Assembly: GCA_029260575.1 (NCBI GenBank)
Contig: JAJDDB010000027.1
Location: forward strand, 2,501 to 66,500
Direction: 5' to 3'
Source: Phycisphaerales bacterium
GTDB taxonomy: Bacteria > Planctomycetota > Phycisphaerae > Phycisphaerales > SM1A02
Length of the DNA: 64,000 bases
The notes beneath the pieces are model-generated. The model did no database searches. It had not been told where the DNA came from and worked only from the letters and a program-made list of their open reading frames with translations. Positions within the stretch are counted from its first letter, which is position 1, and the number at the start of each line of letters is the position of its first letter. Positions 41,192 through 46,847 of this stretch are shown piece after piece. Position numbers and translations under genes: made by a program.

Positions 41192-42892
41192 TTACTGCGT
41201 TTCCGTTGCGGGTACTTCTTGGTCAATGCCGCGAGATTTGAGCAGTTCCTGCAACGAAAGCAATTGCTCCTGTAGTGCGCGGTAGTCCCGCAGTACAAGT
41301 TCGCGCGTCTTGACCGCGACCTGTAACTCATACTGCAGATCTTGAGCCAATTGAAGGCTCTCATCTCGTTGGTCGTTGGATTCCTGCAGGGCGATGCTCA
41401 ACTGGTTCACATCTTGCTGCAGGTGTGAGTGCTGGATTTCCCGTTTCAATTCATCAAGACTCACACGGCGTTTTGGCAGCTTCGGTTGGACACCGTTGTT
41501 GGCCGGCTGATCAAGCAGTTGCATCAATCTGATCTTGTCGATCAACTCAAGATGCGAATCCGCAAAGAGAACAAGAAACGTTGACATCTGTTCGTACATG
41601 GCCCGATCGACGCCGACGATGCGCGCCGCCCAGTCGACCGTGGTGTCAACATTGGGGTTGAAGCTGTAGTCGATCCAATAGTCACTTCCATCGCGCATGG
41701 GGCCAAGCGGAGAACGAAGATCACCCGGCTGCAAGTATCCCACATCAACCAACTGCTGCAGGTTTGTCAGCGGTACATCTTGTTCAGCCGCCCACATGTT
41801 CCACCCTATGCTGATCTTGCGCATCGCGGCAAGCGCCTGCTGCCGCTTCATGTGAATGTCTTTTTCCAATGCGGTCGGCTGCGGCATGACGTTGGGATCA
41901 TCATCCATCGCCGCGCCTTCCGGCTGCACTGACAGCTCATCTAGAATCCACTTGACCTTTTCCTGCATGCGCATCGGAGCATGCACGAACAACTTGCCGC
42001 CGACAATCTGCATATGCGCGGTCGCGCCGCCGTTGACATCCCAGTACTCAGGTTCCACCATCTCGTAAATCAATCCGGACACCTGTTCAGTCGCGTCACC
42101 GTGATCGATGCCGTGTGTCTGAAACATATTCAGGAGCGTGGCGCTGATATCGAAACTCACAAGCCTTGATTCCTGACGATCAAAGACATCGCGCCGATCG
42201 AGAATCAGCATGCGACCCTTCAGTCGCCAGTCGATTGTGTCCCACGCGTCATCGAATCGCCGATTGAGTTCATCGAGCACTGTGAGCACGGAAATCTCTT
42301 GGGCGCTGAAACCCAGCGGTTGATCCGGATCCAGCCCGGCATCTCCGAGTGATCTCCAGTCGACGGAAACGCCGATCTCGTTCGTGTCAACGATTGCTTG
42401 AACGATCTCACGCGGAGACATGTCCATCTCGACATCAATATCAATCGTGTCAAGCGTGCTCGCATCGGCCTGTCGTTGTTCCTGATCCGCAGCAGCGTAC
42501 ATCGCCGGATCGCTTGAATGGGCCGACCCGAACTGACTGCCGTTCGTCATGACTGCAACTGATGCGACAACGGCAATTGTTCCTGCACCAACAAGAAGCG
42601 TATTCATGATCAATCTCCTTTTTGGATATCGATTCGCGTGCCGAAAACGTTCCGCAAGCTCCGCTGCTTCCCCAAGCTCTTCAATAGCCTGCCGCATCGC
42701 TGATTCGCCATCAAGACCGCGCAACATTAAATCCCGGGTTCGTTCGGTGAGATGTCCGCGCAATTCCTCGCGGATTGAATCGCGTTGCACTCCGGGCAGA
42801 CGCAACAGGCGATCAAGAACCTCAAGCCAGGCATCGATGCTTGACGGCTGCTGCACATCACGCTCATGGACATCAATGTCACGCAATCTCAT
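41192..42892 (-). CDS. Anchored membrane protein with HAAS-like N-terminus
   Basis: 566 residues, start overlapping the padR stop (ATGA). The N-terminal helical region (WLEVLDRLLRLPGVQRDSIR, GESAMRQAIEELGEAAELAE) is like the HAAS/permease-prefix domain that accompanies PadR regulators. One membrane helix (TLLVGAGTIAVVASVAVMT) precedes a large extracytoplasmic part with two STN/secretin-N0-like stretches (MSPREIVQAIVDTNEIGVSV, FVHAPMRMQEKVKWILDEL) and an end rich in Gln coiled coil. Function unknown; it resembles planctomycete proteins that sit in PadR-controlled pairs. Confidence 0.65.
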   Translation of the reverse strand: MRLRDIDVHERDVQQPSSIDAWLEVLDRLLRLPGVQRDSIREELRGHLTERTRDLMLRGLDGESAMRQAIEELGEAAELAERFRHANRYPKRRLIMNTLLVGAGTIAVVASVAVMTNGSQFGSAHSSDPAMYAAADQEQRQADASTLDTIDIDVEMDMSPREIVQAIVDTNEIGVSVDWRSLGDAGLDPDQPLGFSAQEISVLTVLDELNRRFDDAWDTIDWRLKGRMLILDRRDVFDRQESRLVSFDISATLLNMFQTHGIDHGDATEQVSGLIYEMVEPEYWDVNGGATAHMQIVGGKLFVHAPMRMQEKVKWILDELSVQPEGAAMDDDPNVMPQPTALEKDIHMKRQQALAAMRKISIGWNMWAAEQDVPLTNLQQLVDVGYLQPGDLRSPLGPMRDGSDYWIDYSFNPNVDTTVDWAARIVGVDRAMYEQMSTFLVLFADSHLELIDKIRLMQLLDQPANNGVQPKLPKRRVSLDELKREIQHSHLQQDVNQLSIALQESNDQRDESLQLAQDLQYELQVAVKTRELVLRDYRALQEQLLSLQELLKSRGIDQEVPATETQ

Positions 42893-43266
42893 GATGCCGG
42901 CTCACTTCTCTCGGCCAGCGCATCGGGAATGAACGACTCAATCAGCTTCTGACATGCGCGATGCGTTGCAATGCGCTGTTCGAGCTTGCGCTTGCCCTTG
43001 GCGGACAAGCGATACCACTTGCGTTTGCGACCGCCGGCTGTTTCGCTGTCATCCGCTCGGACTTCATCCCAACTCGACAGCAGGAGTTTCTGCTTTTCGA
43101 GTTTGTGTAGCAACGGATACAGCACGCCTGGCGTGAGGCGCAGCTGCCCCTCGGACCGGGCTGCGACTTCCTTGCTGATCGCGTAGCCGTACAACGCATC
43201 GTCCGCCAATACGGACAGAACGAGCAGATCAGCGTGCTGGCGAATGAGATCGGATTCGATCGACAT
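42889..43266 (-). CDS. PadR family transcriptional regulator
   Basis: 125 residues, winged-helix regulator that usually represses its own gene and a membrane-protein neighbour. The family core is visible: LLVLSVLADDALYGYAISKE, VAARSEGQLRLTPGVLYPLL and HKLEKQKLLLSSWDEV, then GGRKRKWYRLSAKGKRKL. It overlaps the HAAS-like gene by 4 bases, so one mRNA carries both. A candidate operator lies about 80 bases upstream (43347-43367). Confidence 0.92.
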   Translation of the reverse strand: MSIESDLIRQHADLLVLSVLADDALYGYAISKEVAARSEGQLRLTPGVLYPLLHKLEKQKLLLSSWDEVRADDSETAGGRKRKWYRLSAKGKRKLEQRIATHRACQKLIESFIPDALAERSEPAS

Positions 43267-43346
43267 GGCGGGAACTATCCTTTGTCAAAGGCAGCGGAGG
43301 CTCCGGGCCCGGTAGATTCTTGAAGACACGAATGCCTTCCACATGA

Positions 43347-43367
43347 ATATATCGCATCACGATACAT
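43347..43367. promoter_or_regulatory. Candidate PadR operator
   Basis: An inverted repeat ATATATCG-catca-CGATACAT with a perfect inner core TATCG/CGATA. It lies 80 bases upstream of the padR ATG and fits the AT-rich dyads bound by PadR proteins. Autoregulation is the expected role, but only the symmetry supports it. Confidence 0.4.
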
Positions 43368-43494
43368 CCGGTTCCAAGGGATTGTCAAGAAAGTTCGAAA
43401 AGTTGATCTGCCGATTGAAAACGCATGAGCCGTGAACCGATGAACGTCTCGGATCATTGACCCGCGACGAAACCGGGATACGCTTGTGGCAGTT

Positions 43495-43551
43495 ATGAAC
43501 AACCGCAGCATCACTATGACGACGACCACGACCACCCCCGAGGGGGGCTGA
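43495..43551 (+). CDS. Threonine-rich leader peptide of thrS
   Basis: 18 codons, MNNRSITMTTTTTTPEGG, ending TGA at 43549-43551. Seven of 18 residues are Thr, six in a row, encoded ACG ACG ACC ACG ACC ACC (43519-43536) after an earlier ACT. The ORF lies about 160 bases before the thrS start and directly ahead of a hairpin terminator. The pattern is that of a leader peptide whose translation reports Thr-tRNA charging. A second ATG at 43516 abuts the Thr run. There is no clear Shine-Dalgarno site. A weak promoter (TTGACC 43457-43462, TACGCT 43479-43484, 16 apart) would put the transcript start only a few bases before the ATG, so the leader may be nearly leaderless. Confidence 0.75.
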   Translation: MNNRSITMTTTTTTPEGG

Positions 43552-43552
43552 C

Positions 43553-43596
43553 GCCGTCGCTGTGGTAAGACTTTCTGATCCCCCACCAGGCACGGC
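43553..43596 (+). promoter_or_regulatory. Candidate antiterminator of the thrS attenuator
   Basis: GCCGT (43553-43557) can pair with ACGGC (43592-43596), and TGGT (43563-43566) with ACCA (43585-43588), with a small internal loop. This helix uses the left arm of the terminator, so the two cannot form together. Its 5' arm starts two bases after the leader stop, where a terminating ribosome would cover it. ACCAC in the Thr codons (43531-43535) can also pair with GTGGT (43562-43566), giving a possible 1:2 helix. Confidence 0.55.
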
Positions 43597-43620
43597 AAAC
43601 AGCCGTGCCTGTTTCGTTTT
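43588..43620 (+). terminator. Attenuator terminator before thrS
   Basis: Perfect 9-base arms AGGCACGGC (43588-43596) and GCCGTGCCT (43602-43610) with loop AAACA, followed by GTTTCGTTTT. It lies 90 bases before the thrS ATG with no gene ending upstream on this strand, so its only sensible target is the thrS leader transcript. Confidence 0.8.
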
Positions 43621-43709
43621 ACGATACGTGCGTACAACTCATTGTCGAGCATCATTCGGAGCGAGGACGCTTCGGCTCGCACAGCAATACACACTCAGGA
43701 CGTTCTTCA

Positions 43710-45794
43710 ATGCCTCGCATTACTCTGCCAGACGGAACCGTCAAGAACTTCGACCAGCCGATCTCGGCGTACGACGTCGCAGCCGACATCGGCCCGGGAT
43801 TGGCCAAAGCAGCAATCGGCGCCAAAGTCGATGGTGTACTCTGTGATCTCAGCACCATCATCAATGACGATGCAAGTCTTGAGTTGATCACTCCTGCAGA
43901 TCGCAAGACCGGCGAATCGACTGATGATGCGCTGTATCTCATCCGCCACAGTGCTGCACACGTCATGGCGGAAGCGATCCAGCGCATCATCCCCGACGCG
44001 CAGCTCGTGTACGGGCCGCCTGTGGAAAACGGGTTCTATTACGACATTGCTTTTCCTGATGATCAGCCGTTGTCCGCGGAGCAGTTCGATGCAATCGAAA
44101 AGGAGATGGACAAGATCATCAAGGAAGATCGGCCGTTCACTCGCTACGAACTGCCAGCGGCAGCGGGCATGGACAAGCTGAGATCCGAAGGCAGCAAGTA
44201 CAAACTCGACAATGCGGAACGCGCCCTCGATGCAGGTTCTGATGCGCTCAGTTGGTATGCAACCGGCAAACCCCGCGAGAGTTGGGAAGACCTCTGCCGT
44301 GGCCCGCACGTGCCATCCACAGGCCGCATCGGCGCGTTCAAGGTTATGTCGCTTGCCTCCAGCTACTGGCATGGCGATGCGAATAGTGACGCGCTGACCC
44401 GAGTGTATGGCACCGCATTCACAACCAGTGAGCAGCTTGAAAAGCATCTCGAAGTTCTTGATGAGGCGAAAAAGCGCGACCATCGTGTACTCGGCAAACA
44501 ACTGCAACTCTTTACTATTGATGAAACAGTCGGCCCGGGACTGATCCTGTGGAGCCCAAACGGCGCGGTCGTTCGGCAGGAACTGCAGACCTTCATCGGC
44601 AACGAATTGCGCAAGCAGGGATATCACCAGGTCTTCACACCGCACATCGGCCGGCTTGAGCTGTACCGTACCAGTGGACACTTTCCGTATTACCAGGACA
44701 GTCAGTATCCGCCTTTGATTGAAGGCGAATTCTTATCCGGGCTGGCGACAGAAGGTTGCACCTGTGGCGATCTCGCAAACCGCATGAGTTCTGGTGCGAT
44801 CGACGGCTATCTGCTCAAGCCGATGAACTGCCCGCATCACATCAAGATCTATGCCAGTCAGCCGCACAGCTATCGTGACCTTCCTGTGCGGTTGGCGGAA
44901 TTCGGAACTGTGTATCGCTATGAACAATCCGGCGAGATCGGCGGCATGACCCGCGTGCGCGGCTTTACACAGGATGATGCGCATATCTTCTGCACCGAAG
45001 AGCAACTCGCAGATGAATTGATCGGCTGCCTTGAGTTGGTGAAGGTCATCTTCAACACCCTGGGCATGGATGACTACCGAGTGCGCGTCGGCTTGCGTGA
45101 TGTGGACAGCGAGAAGTACGTCGGCCAAACCGACTTGTGGGACAAGGCGGAAGATGCCGTACGCAAAGCGACCAAGACTCTTGGCAAGCCGTTTCGTGAA
45201 GAACCGGGTGAAGCTGCATTCTACGGCCCGAAGATCGACTTTGTGGTCAAGGATGTGGTCGGCCGAGAGTGGCAACTCGGAACTGTGCAAGTGGATTACA
45301 ACCTGCCCGTGCGGTTTGATCTGAGTTACATCGGTGCGGACAACCAGCCGCATCGGCCGGTGATGGTCCACCGGGCACCGTTCGGCTCGTTTGAGCGATT
45401 TGTCGGTTGCTTGATCGAGCATTTTGCTGGGGCATTCCCGACCTGGCTTGCGCCTGAACAGGTTCGCGTTTTGCCGATTTCGGATAAGACTGCGGGTTAC
45501 GGCCGAGAAGTGCTTGCGACGCTCAAGGATGCAGGCATCCGTGCAACTACCGATGAATCCAGCGAACGCGTCCAGAACAAGATTCGCGTGGCCAGCGAGA
45601 TGAAAATCCCGTATCTGCTCATAGTCGGCCCGCGTGATGAAGAGGCTCGGAGTGTCAGCGTTCGGGCTCGGGGCATTCGCCACGATCTGGGCGCGTTGCC
45701 CCTGGAGACCTTCCTGGGCTCAGTGATCGAGGAAATACACAGCCGCAGCGCCACGACAGTGATCCAAAGGCACTTTGAGGCAATTGCGGTTTGA
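43710..45794 (+). CDS. thrS: Threonyl-tRNA synthetase
   Basis: Charges tRNA-Thr and edits mischarged Ser-tRNA-Thr. About 694 residues from the ATG at 43710, which has AGGA at 43697-43700; the frame is open from 43605 but that part is leader RNA. Domains in order: TGS (MPRITLPDGTVKNF), editing domain with RHSAAHVMAEA and CRGPHVPSTGRIGAFKV, class II catalytic core with MNCPHHIKIY (zinc Cys), RVRGFTQDDAHIFC (zinc His), GREWQLGTVQVDYNLPVR and MVHRAPFGSFERFVGCLIEH, then the anticodon-binding domain (RVLPISDKTAGYGREVL). Complete. Expression is likely attenuated through the Thr leader upstream. Confidence 0.97.
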   Translation: MPRITLPDGTVKNFDQPISAYDVAADIGPGLAKAAIGAKVDGVLCDLSTIINDDASLELITPADRKTGESTDDALYLIRHSAAHVMAEAIQRIIPDAQLVYGPPVENGFYYDIAFPDDQPLSAEQFDAIEKEMDKIIKEDRPFTRYELPAAAGMDKLRSEGSKYKLDNAERALDAGSDALSWYATGKPRESWEDLCRGPHVPSTGRIGAFKVMSLASSYWHGDANSDALTRVYGTAFTTSEQLEKHLEVLDEAKKRDHRVLGKQLQLFTIDETVGPGLILWSPNGAVVRQELQTFIGNELRKQGYHQVFTPHIGRLELYRTSGHFPYYQDSQYPPLIEGEFLSGLATEGCTCGDLANRMSSGAIDGYLLKPMNCPHHIKIYASQPHSYRDLPVRLAEFGTVYRYEQSGEIGGMTRVRGFTQDDAHIFCTEEQLADELIGCLELVKVIFNTLGMDDYRVRVGLRDVDSEKYVGQTDLWDKAEDAVRKATKTLGKPFREEPGEAAFYGPKIDFVVKDVVGREWQLGTVQVDYNLPVRFDLSYIGADNQPHRPVMVHRAPFGSFERFVGCLIEHFAGAFPTWLAPEQVRVLPISDKTAGYGREVLATLKDAGIRATTDESSERVQNKIRVASEMKIPYLLIVGPRDEEARSVSVRARGIRHDLGALPLETFLGSVIEEIHSRSATTVIQRHFEAIAV

Positions 45795-46127
45795 ATCGGC
45801 GTCTACAGCAAAACGAAACTGAATCTTCGGTTGCCTCGCGCCGATGTGGAAGTTAGGCTTATTCAGAACCAAAGCGCATTTCAGCGTTTGGATGCATCCG
45901 CCACCGGCGAGATGCCCGGAGATATGTGACCTGATTCGGTTGCCACGCCATTTCAATCGTCGGAGTATCTGGTAGCCCATGGCTGCCATCCGACCCACGA
46001 CTCGTGTTCTGCAACATTTGCGTTTTCAGCCGGCTTCGGCTGACGTTTATCTATTGGCTCATCGCCGGCGCTGAGTTGCGCTGACGCATGCCAATTCATG
46101 TTTGTTTTGAAGTAAAGGAATTCCACT
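45795..46127 (+). other. thrS-infC spacer with hairpin
   Basis: Over 330 bases with no gene. It has a hairpin TCAGCCG-GCTT-CGGCTGA (46026-46043), not followed by a clean U run, and ends with the infC ribosome binding site AAAGGA (46114-46119). The stretch could carry an infC promoter or leader regulation, as in other bacteria where thrS and infC adjoin. Nothing else is identifiable. Confidence 0.5.
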
Positions 46128-46847
46128 ATCGCACGCAGACGATTCTTTCGACCTGAAGACCGTGTCCGTCGTGGCCCGCGCATGAATGATCGCATTCGAG
46201 TCAGTCCGATTCGACTCATCGATGAGGACGGCGAGATGATTGGCGTTGTCGACATTGAAGATGCGCTGAACCGCGCTCGTGAAGCTGAACTCGATCTTGT
46301 CGAGATTTCACCCGAGGCAAGTCCGCCGGTCTGCCGGATTCTTGATTACGGCAAGTTTCGATATGAGCAGTCCAAGAAGGAAAAAGCTCAGAAGGCGAGG
46401 TCGAAGACGCTCGAAATGAAAGAAGTTCGTCTCGGGCGATCGATGAAGATTGACCCGCACGACATCGAGATTCGTCTGAACAAGGCTCGGCAGTTCCTGA
46501 CAGACGGCCACAAGGTGCAGATTGTTCAGAATTTCCGTGGTCGGGAAATGATGCACCGCGATCGTGGTTTCGATCGGATGAAAGACATCATCGAGAAGTT
46601 GTCTGACGTTTCGAAGATGGAAGTTCCGCCGCGCATGGCAGGGCGTCGCGTAACAATGATTCTTGCGCCGGACAAGGCAAAGATTGACAAGATCAAACGT
46701 CGCGCCGAGTCGGAACTGAAGAACAAACAAGAGGCTGAAAGCCAGGCATCTAAACCTGCGCCTGAAGGCGCATCCGAGCAGAAAGCGAACCCCGTGGCCG
46801 AGTCGAAGCCCCCGGCGACCGAACCCGTGGAGAGCGGTAAGTCTTGA
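46128..46847 (+). CDS. infC: Translation initiation factor IF-3, AUC start
   Basis: IF-3 keeps ribosomal subunits apart and checks start codons. The N-terminal family residues ARRRFFRPEDRVRRGPRMND lie upstream of the first ATG (46182), so the true start is ATC at 46128, with AAAGGA 8 bases before it; infC is known for non-AUG starts that IF-3 itself discriminates against. Domains: N-domain INDRIRV-like MNDRIRVSPIRLIDEDGEMI, linker RSKTLEMKEVRLGRSMKIDP, C-domain HDIEIRLNKARQFLTDGHKV and PPRMAGRRVTMILAP. A Glu/Ala/Pro/Lys-rich tail of about 45 residues (ESQASKPAPEGASEQKANPV) is extra. rpmI and rplT do not follow it. Confidence 0.93.
   Translation: MARRRFFRPEDRVRRGPRMNDRIRVSPIRLIDEDGEMIGVVDIEDALNRAREAELDLVEISPEASPPVCRILDYGKFRYEQSKKEKAQKARSKTLEMKEVRLGRSMKIDPHDIEIRLNKARQFLTDGHKVQIVQNFRGREMMHRDRGFDRMKDIIEKLSDVSKMEVPPRMAGRRVTMILAPDKAKIDKIKRRAESELKNKQEAESQASKPAPEGASEQKANPVAESKPPATEPVESGKS

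Follow-up and report, generated by a model that had tools for sequence, protein, structure and literature searches.

The threonine--tRNA ligase gene thrS of the Phycisphaerales bacterium studied here is, with a probability of about 0.88, controlled by a classical ribosome-mediated transcription attenuator responding to charged tRNA-Thr. In the 64,000-nucleotide stretch of DNA that was analysed (the window), thrS, the proposed regulated gene, occupies positions 43710-45794 on the forward strand (TIGR00418 equivalog, E 7.5e-185), and its start is consistent with those of relatives (MPRITLPDG). As read from the sequence, the DNA upstream of thrS carries a promoter match, a threonine-rich short ORF, an intrinsic terminator, and a helix alternative to the terminator, and these elements are conserved together. 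The same layout is present in dozens of relatives. Therefore, the ribosome itself is very probably the threonine gauge that switches thrS on.

The leader ORF (43495-43551, forward strand) encodes the peptide MNNRSITMTTTTTTPEGG, and a Thr-rich short ORF is kept 5' of thrS in relatives. Direct reading of its codons (ATG AAC AAC CGC AGC ATC ACT ATG ACG ACG ACC ACG ACC ACC CCC GAG GGG GGC TGA) confirms what a sequence-only reading of this DNA had described, namely 18 codons of which seven specify Thr, a run of six Thr codons (ACG ACG ACC ACG ACC ACC) at 43519-43536, and a stop codon at 43549-43551. The run, which also lies within segment 1 of the alternative helices described below, is the proposed site of sensing and stalling. 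It ends 15 nt before the end of the stop codon, in line with most orthologous leaders.

The stop codon is followed by a putative intrinsic terminator (3:4) at 43587-43611 on the forward strand. The stem-loop, CAGGCACGGC-AAACA-GCCGTGCCTG, has a predicted free energy of -20.1 to -21.1 kcal/mol and is followed by the T-rich tail TTTCGTTTTA. It is the sole terminator-like site within 43260-43720, and the ATG of thrS (43710) lies 98 nt beyond its end. A terminator with a T-rich tail had been claimed at this place, and it is present, but its stem has 10 bp rather than the 9 bp of that claim. The antiterminator hairpin (2:3; 43553-43596, forward strand) begins 1 nt past the leader stop codon, with arms at 43553-43565 and about 43583-43596 and a predicted free energy of -15.5 kcal/mol; the coordinates proposed for it earlier were right within a base or two. 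It takes the 5' arm of the terminator, and the two helices are therefore mutually exclusive. In addition, codons of the leader ORF can pair with segment 2 in a protector hairpin (1:2; 43501-43567, forward strand, -26.7 kcal/mol), which is expected to form if the leader is not translated.

To represent the positions of the ribosome, the window RNA was folded without the part that the ribosome would cover. With the ribosome stalled at the last Thr codon, the antiterminator folds at -15.5 kcal/mol; with the ribosome at the stop codon and segment 4 not yet made, the fold reaches merely -1.3 kcal/mol. In the full-length RNA, thermodynamics favours the terminator whatever the state, so that the switching has to be kinetic, as it usually is in attenuators. 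Taken alone, the window antiterminator is modestly better than shuffled sequences (p 0.02-0.1). The strength of the antiterminator case rests in the comparative set, not in the window alone.

Translation of the leader ORF, ribosome stalling, switching, and the response to threonine are predicted from this anatomy and its conservation, as follows. Transcription would start about 0-5 nt before the short ORF with its seven Thr codons. A shortage of charged tRNA-Thr would make the ribosome stall in the Thr run, where it would cover segment 1 and leave the RNA past the stop codon uncovered. Segment 2 would then pair with segment 3, the 5' arm of the terminator would be sequestered, and RNA polymerase would continue into thrS. 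When charged tRNA-Thr is available, the ribosome would reach the stop codon and cover segment 2, the 3:4 terminator would form, and the transcript would end near 43620. An untranslated leader would adopt the 1:2 pairing, and termination would again be favoured. The extra ThrRS made on read-through would recharge tRNA-Thr, thereby closing a negative feedback loop.

For the comparative analysis, we used the thrS protein to gather the regions upstream of thrS from relatives, giving 155 loci, mostly from the same class as the window. Loci from different collections may belong to the same or near-identical genomes, and our figures are therefore counts of loci. A uniform detector searched for an ORF of up to 45 aa in which 5 or more of 8 residues are identical, with a hairpin and T-tract 10-60 nt behind it. 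It found a Thr-rich short ORF and then a terminator at 35 of the 155 loci; terminators at L042 and L043 were recognised by folding, with a slightly laxer terminator search, bringing the total to 37 leader loci. Examples of the leader peptides are MQQNTATTTTTTTTTATGGR, MIDALFSTTTTTTTTGSARG, MPRPTTTTTTTTETRPRG, and MNAKRFTTTTTTTTHCVGR, and the planctomycete leaders have mostly 5-13 Thr codons. Applied to the other 19 amino acids, the same detector gave four matches together (Arg, one; Ser, two; His, one; the remaining 16, none), and it gave one match on the antisense strand. Each of the six families sampled from the window's order contains carriers (f1, 8; f2, 12; f3, 1; f4, 5; f5, 1; f6, 5), which supports the Thr attenuation reading proposed from the window sequence. 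Further carriers are L058, a named Phycisphaerales MAG, and four loci of family f11 of the same class.

Runs of (ACN)6 are found at about seven distinct places in the 4.1-Mb genome, together with simple ACG arrays, and many relatives have no leader. Such observations would suit a reading in which low complexity or a high GC content has produced the Thr run by chance, beside an ordinary terminator and with no regulatory meaning. However, the run at thrS is the only one that forms a short leader ORF, and the arrangement recurs at 37 thrS loci with a specificity for Thr that neither the other 19 amino acids nor the antisense strand reproduces. The Thr codons of the orthologous leaders are mixed (ACG, ACC, ACA, and ACT), unlike a DNA repeat, and the terminator spacing and promoter placement are constant. 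Chance low complexity is ruled out as a general account by the Thr-specific recurrence in the detector survey, and we regard it as highly improbable.

The geometry of the orthologous leaders is that of an attenuator. The antiterminator starts within about 4 nt of the end of the stop codon in all 37 leaders. In 36 of them, 6-27 nt lie between the end of the Thr cluster and the end of the stop codon; the one outlier has 36 nt. A ribosome protects about 11-12 nt beyond its A site. With this footprint and spacing, a ribosome in the Thr run would leave segment 2 free, while a ribosome at the stop codon would cover it.

The folds were compared with dinucleotide shuffles of the RNA from the stop codon to the middle of the terminator. 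Antiterminator hairpins beat the shuffles with a combined p of 4e-16 over 22 leaders, and the result holds after dereplication (p 5e-11 for 29 clusters at 85% identity; p 6e-8 for 22 clusters at 70%). Pairing with region 3 is stronger for the native region 2 than for its shuffled versions (p 9e-10, before dereplication), and the 1:2 pairing is weakly above shuffles across the set (combined p 0.03). The alternative helices for which conservation had been anticipated are thus present in relatives, kept as folds while their sequences diverge; a MAFFT alignment of the post-stop regions is very gappy. When region 2 is swapped between loci, the 2:3 pairing becomes only slightly weaker (p 0.03-0.12), indicating that locus-specific covariation is modest. 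The predicted antiterminator fold, on these comparisons, shows strong conservation.

Antiterminators of the f2 type are no better than shuffles (p 0.4-0.5). Their weakness would fit a leader that acts by translational coupling, Rho-dependent polarity, or mRNA stability, with the hairpin being incidental or a constitutive terminator, and some actinobacterial leader peptides have no clear terminators and may use Rho (PMC1262725). However, a strong hairpin and T-tract lie at a narrow distance past the leader in every case examined; in all 22 leaders first examined, the hairpin is GC-rich and located 20-45 nt past the leader stop. Moreover, the terminator of the window stands within the 158 nt that separate the leader stop from the thrS start. 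We therefore consider such routes improbable, though the least so among the alternatives to the attenuator.

The predicted promoter lies immediately upstream of the leader. A -35 element (TTGACC, 43457-43462, forward strand) and a -10 element (TACGCT, 43479-43484, forward strand) are separated by a 16-nt spacer and score 8 of 12, and the leader ATG lies 10 nt beyond the -10 element. From this match, the transcript is predicted to start at about 43491, about 4 nt before the leader ATG. A TTGA(C/T)-N16-TAnnnT pattern precedes most orthologous leaders; at most of them, 8-13 nt separate the end of the -10 element from the ATG. Of the 37 leader loci, 22 have a promoter score of 8 of 12 or higher, compared with 3.8 +/- 1.9 in mononucleotide shuffles. 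Several f2 leaders have GCCGATATACT at the promoter position instead. At L028-L031, L224, L229, and L230 there is a recurrent GATATACT with no clear -35 element, separated from the leader ATG by about 6-8 nt (by slightly more in L224); this motif resembles the extended -10 promoter of a leaderless gene. The placement of the -10 element just before the leader ATG implies that the leader transcript is probably nearly leaderless. Several leader peptides of Streptomyces lividans are likewise reported to have leaderless transcripts (PMC8079986). A transcript starting downstream of 43620, which would have spoken against attenuation, is argued against by this promoter upstream of the leader; between the terminator and thrS of the window we found just one poor promoter match.

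The position of the predicted start also bears on the possibility that thrS is regulated by a T-box, a tRNA-binding riboswitch, as is the case in almost all Firmicutes examined (PMC2494555). Since the predicted start precedes the leader ATG by about 4 nt, the RNA ahead of the leader is not long enough for a T-box, and an Rfam scan of the window at gathering and relaxed thresholds gave nothing relevant, with no match to a T-box or to the Thr_leader family RF00506. T-box control is the least probable of the alternatives. In E. coli, ThrRS binds its own mRNA and thereby controls thrS (named in PMC2965389), and the leader RNA might likewise be bound by ThrRS. However, the E. coli control acts at the ribosome-binding site, whereas here the conserved features, a Thr ORF and a terminator, are located about 100 nt upstream; we saw no tRNA-like operator, and Rfam gave no match. 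Such autoregulation is very unlikely.

A scan of about 1.26 Mb of the same genome (about 30%), on both strands and around 369 terminator-like hairpins, gave no convincing amino-acid leader ahead of a gene other than that of thrS, and no second Thr ORF with a terminator and then a gene behind it. Candidate Trp and Cys leaders in the same scan look like noise. A phylum-wide search with a DNA pattern (Thr run plus GC arm) was uninformative, yielding mainly matches in coding sequence. Two contigs of assembly G000, C11 and C13 (loci L171 and L172), may be assembly contamination; C13 has long tandem ACG repeats at its ends, and C11 has a poly-Asn/Gln ORF.

The conservation in relatives that the sequence-only reading expected extends across the sampled families of the order, but it is patchy, and many close relatives lack the leader. 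Within the family of the window, 8 of about 41 genomes have it. No Thr leader was seen in the phylum sample outside the class or among the loci sampled from Verrucomicrobiota and elsewhere, although the 5' end of thrS is incomplete for some of these. Relatives that lack the leader have no convincing distant Thr ORF up to about 1-1.5 kb upstream. Part of the pattern follows gene order. nrdR lies directly upstream of thrS on the same strand at 20 of 118 leader-less loci (among them L006, L010, L012, L018, L033, L060, L062, and L065) and at none of the 37 leader loci (Fisher p 0.004, with kinship ignored). The nrdR gene of the window lies on the opposite strand at a distance of 2.6 kb. Because the nrdR-thrS arrangement is confined to leader-less loci, the leader is plausibly a feature of stand-alone thrS transcription units. 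The arrangement accounts for part of the leader absences only.

A gene for a PadR-family regulator (42889-43266, reverse strand) is divergent to the leader-thrS unit. The next gene downstream of thrS is infC, encoding IF-3 (46182-46847, forward strand; TIGR00168, E 2.2e-56), and it is possibly also influenced by the attenuator. The order thrS then infC (43710-46847 in the window) is the same gene neighbourhood as in E. coli.

Taken more broadly, it seems rather likely that a Phycisphaerae-wide, lineage-specific class of threonine attenuators governs thrS, with nearly leaderless mRNAs and a dedicated promoter, and that it has been lost or replaced once thrS joined an nrdR-thrS operon. Attenuation works only if the ribosome closely follows RNA polymerase. 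The conservation of the attenuator would therefore imply that transcription and translation are tightly coupled in Phycisphaerae, and would be genomic evidence of this coupling. This makes the host group notable, as coupling has been questioned for another planctomycete lineage. Gemmata is a planctomycete of a different class from Phycisphaerae. A spatial separation of transcription and translation has been proposed for it (cited in PMC5394234). The attenuator offers a simple reporter test of coupling in Phycisphaerae.

The attenuator logic itself is already known from thrL, trpL, and pheM, and the planctomycete thrS case adds to that kind. E. coli thrL (RF00506) has a Thr-rich leader peptide, an overlapping antiterminator and intrinsic terminator, and the same stall logic; it controls thrABC biosynthesis, not the synthetase, and senses Ile besides Thr. 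In contrast, the planctomycete leader has Thr only, is predicted to be nearly leaderless, and gives no RF00506 match in the window. Our literature search found no description of leader-peptide attenuation in Planctomycetota; the survey by Lopatovskaya et al. 2010 (Mol Biol 44:128; cited in PMC4833913), reportedly covering attenuation of amino-acid and aminoacyl-tRNA operons, lay outside its scope. Most documented leader-peptide attenuation is from Proteobacteria and Actinobacteria; a Firmicute case followed in 2010 (PMC2965389, PMC1262725). Closest in kind are E. coli pheM-pheST and Streptomyces leuS and trpS, where leader peptides attenuate aminoacyl-tRNA synthetase genes (PMC1262725) as proposed here, for another amino acid and in another phylum. 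In Firmicutes, His leader peptides replace another sensor at the synthetase family genes hisS and hisZ (Naville and Gautheret 2010, PMC2965389), a case that is also outside Proteobacteria and Actinobacteria and differs in amino acid, gene, and phylum.

The sequence-only reading had known of no Thr leader at a planctomycete thrS, and the literature searched held none; a threonine leader peptide 5' of thrS had nevertheless been proposed earlier, in S. lividans. This thrL, as presented in the accessible text of PMC8079986, belongs to a leaderless transcript and has two Thr codons only (MKRVRPFLETTPGFVPAR) and one hairpin without a U-tract, and comparative support is not described there. The planctomycete leaders differ from thrL as so described in their more numerous Thr codons, their terminator, and their broad conservation. 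At the same gene, the E. coli thrS operator relies on protein binding and the Firmicute T-box on direct tRNA binding, sensors of which neither was found here. To the T-box and the E. coli operator, a leader peptide read by the ribosome would add a third known way to sense tRNA-Thr status at thrS.
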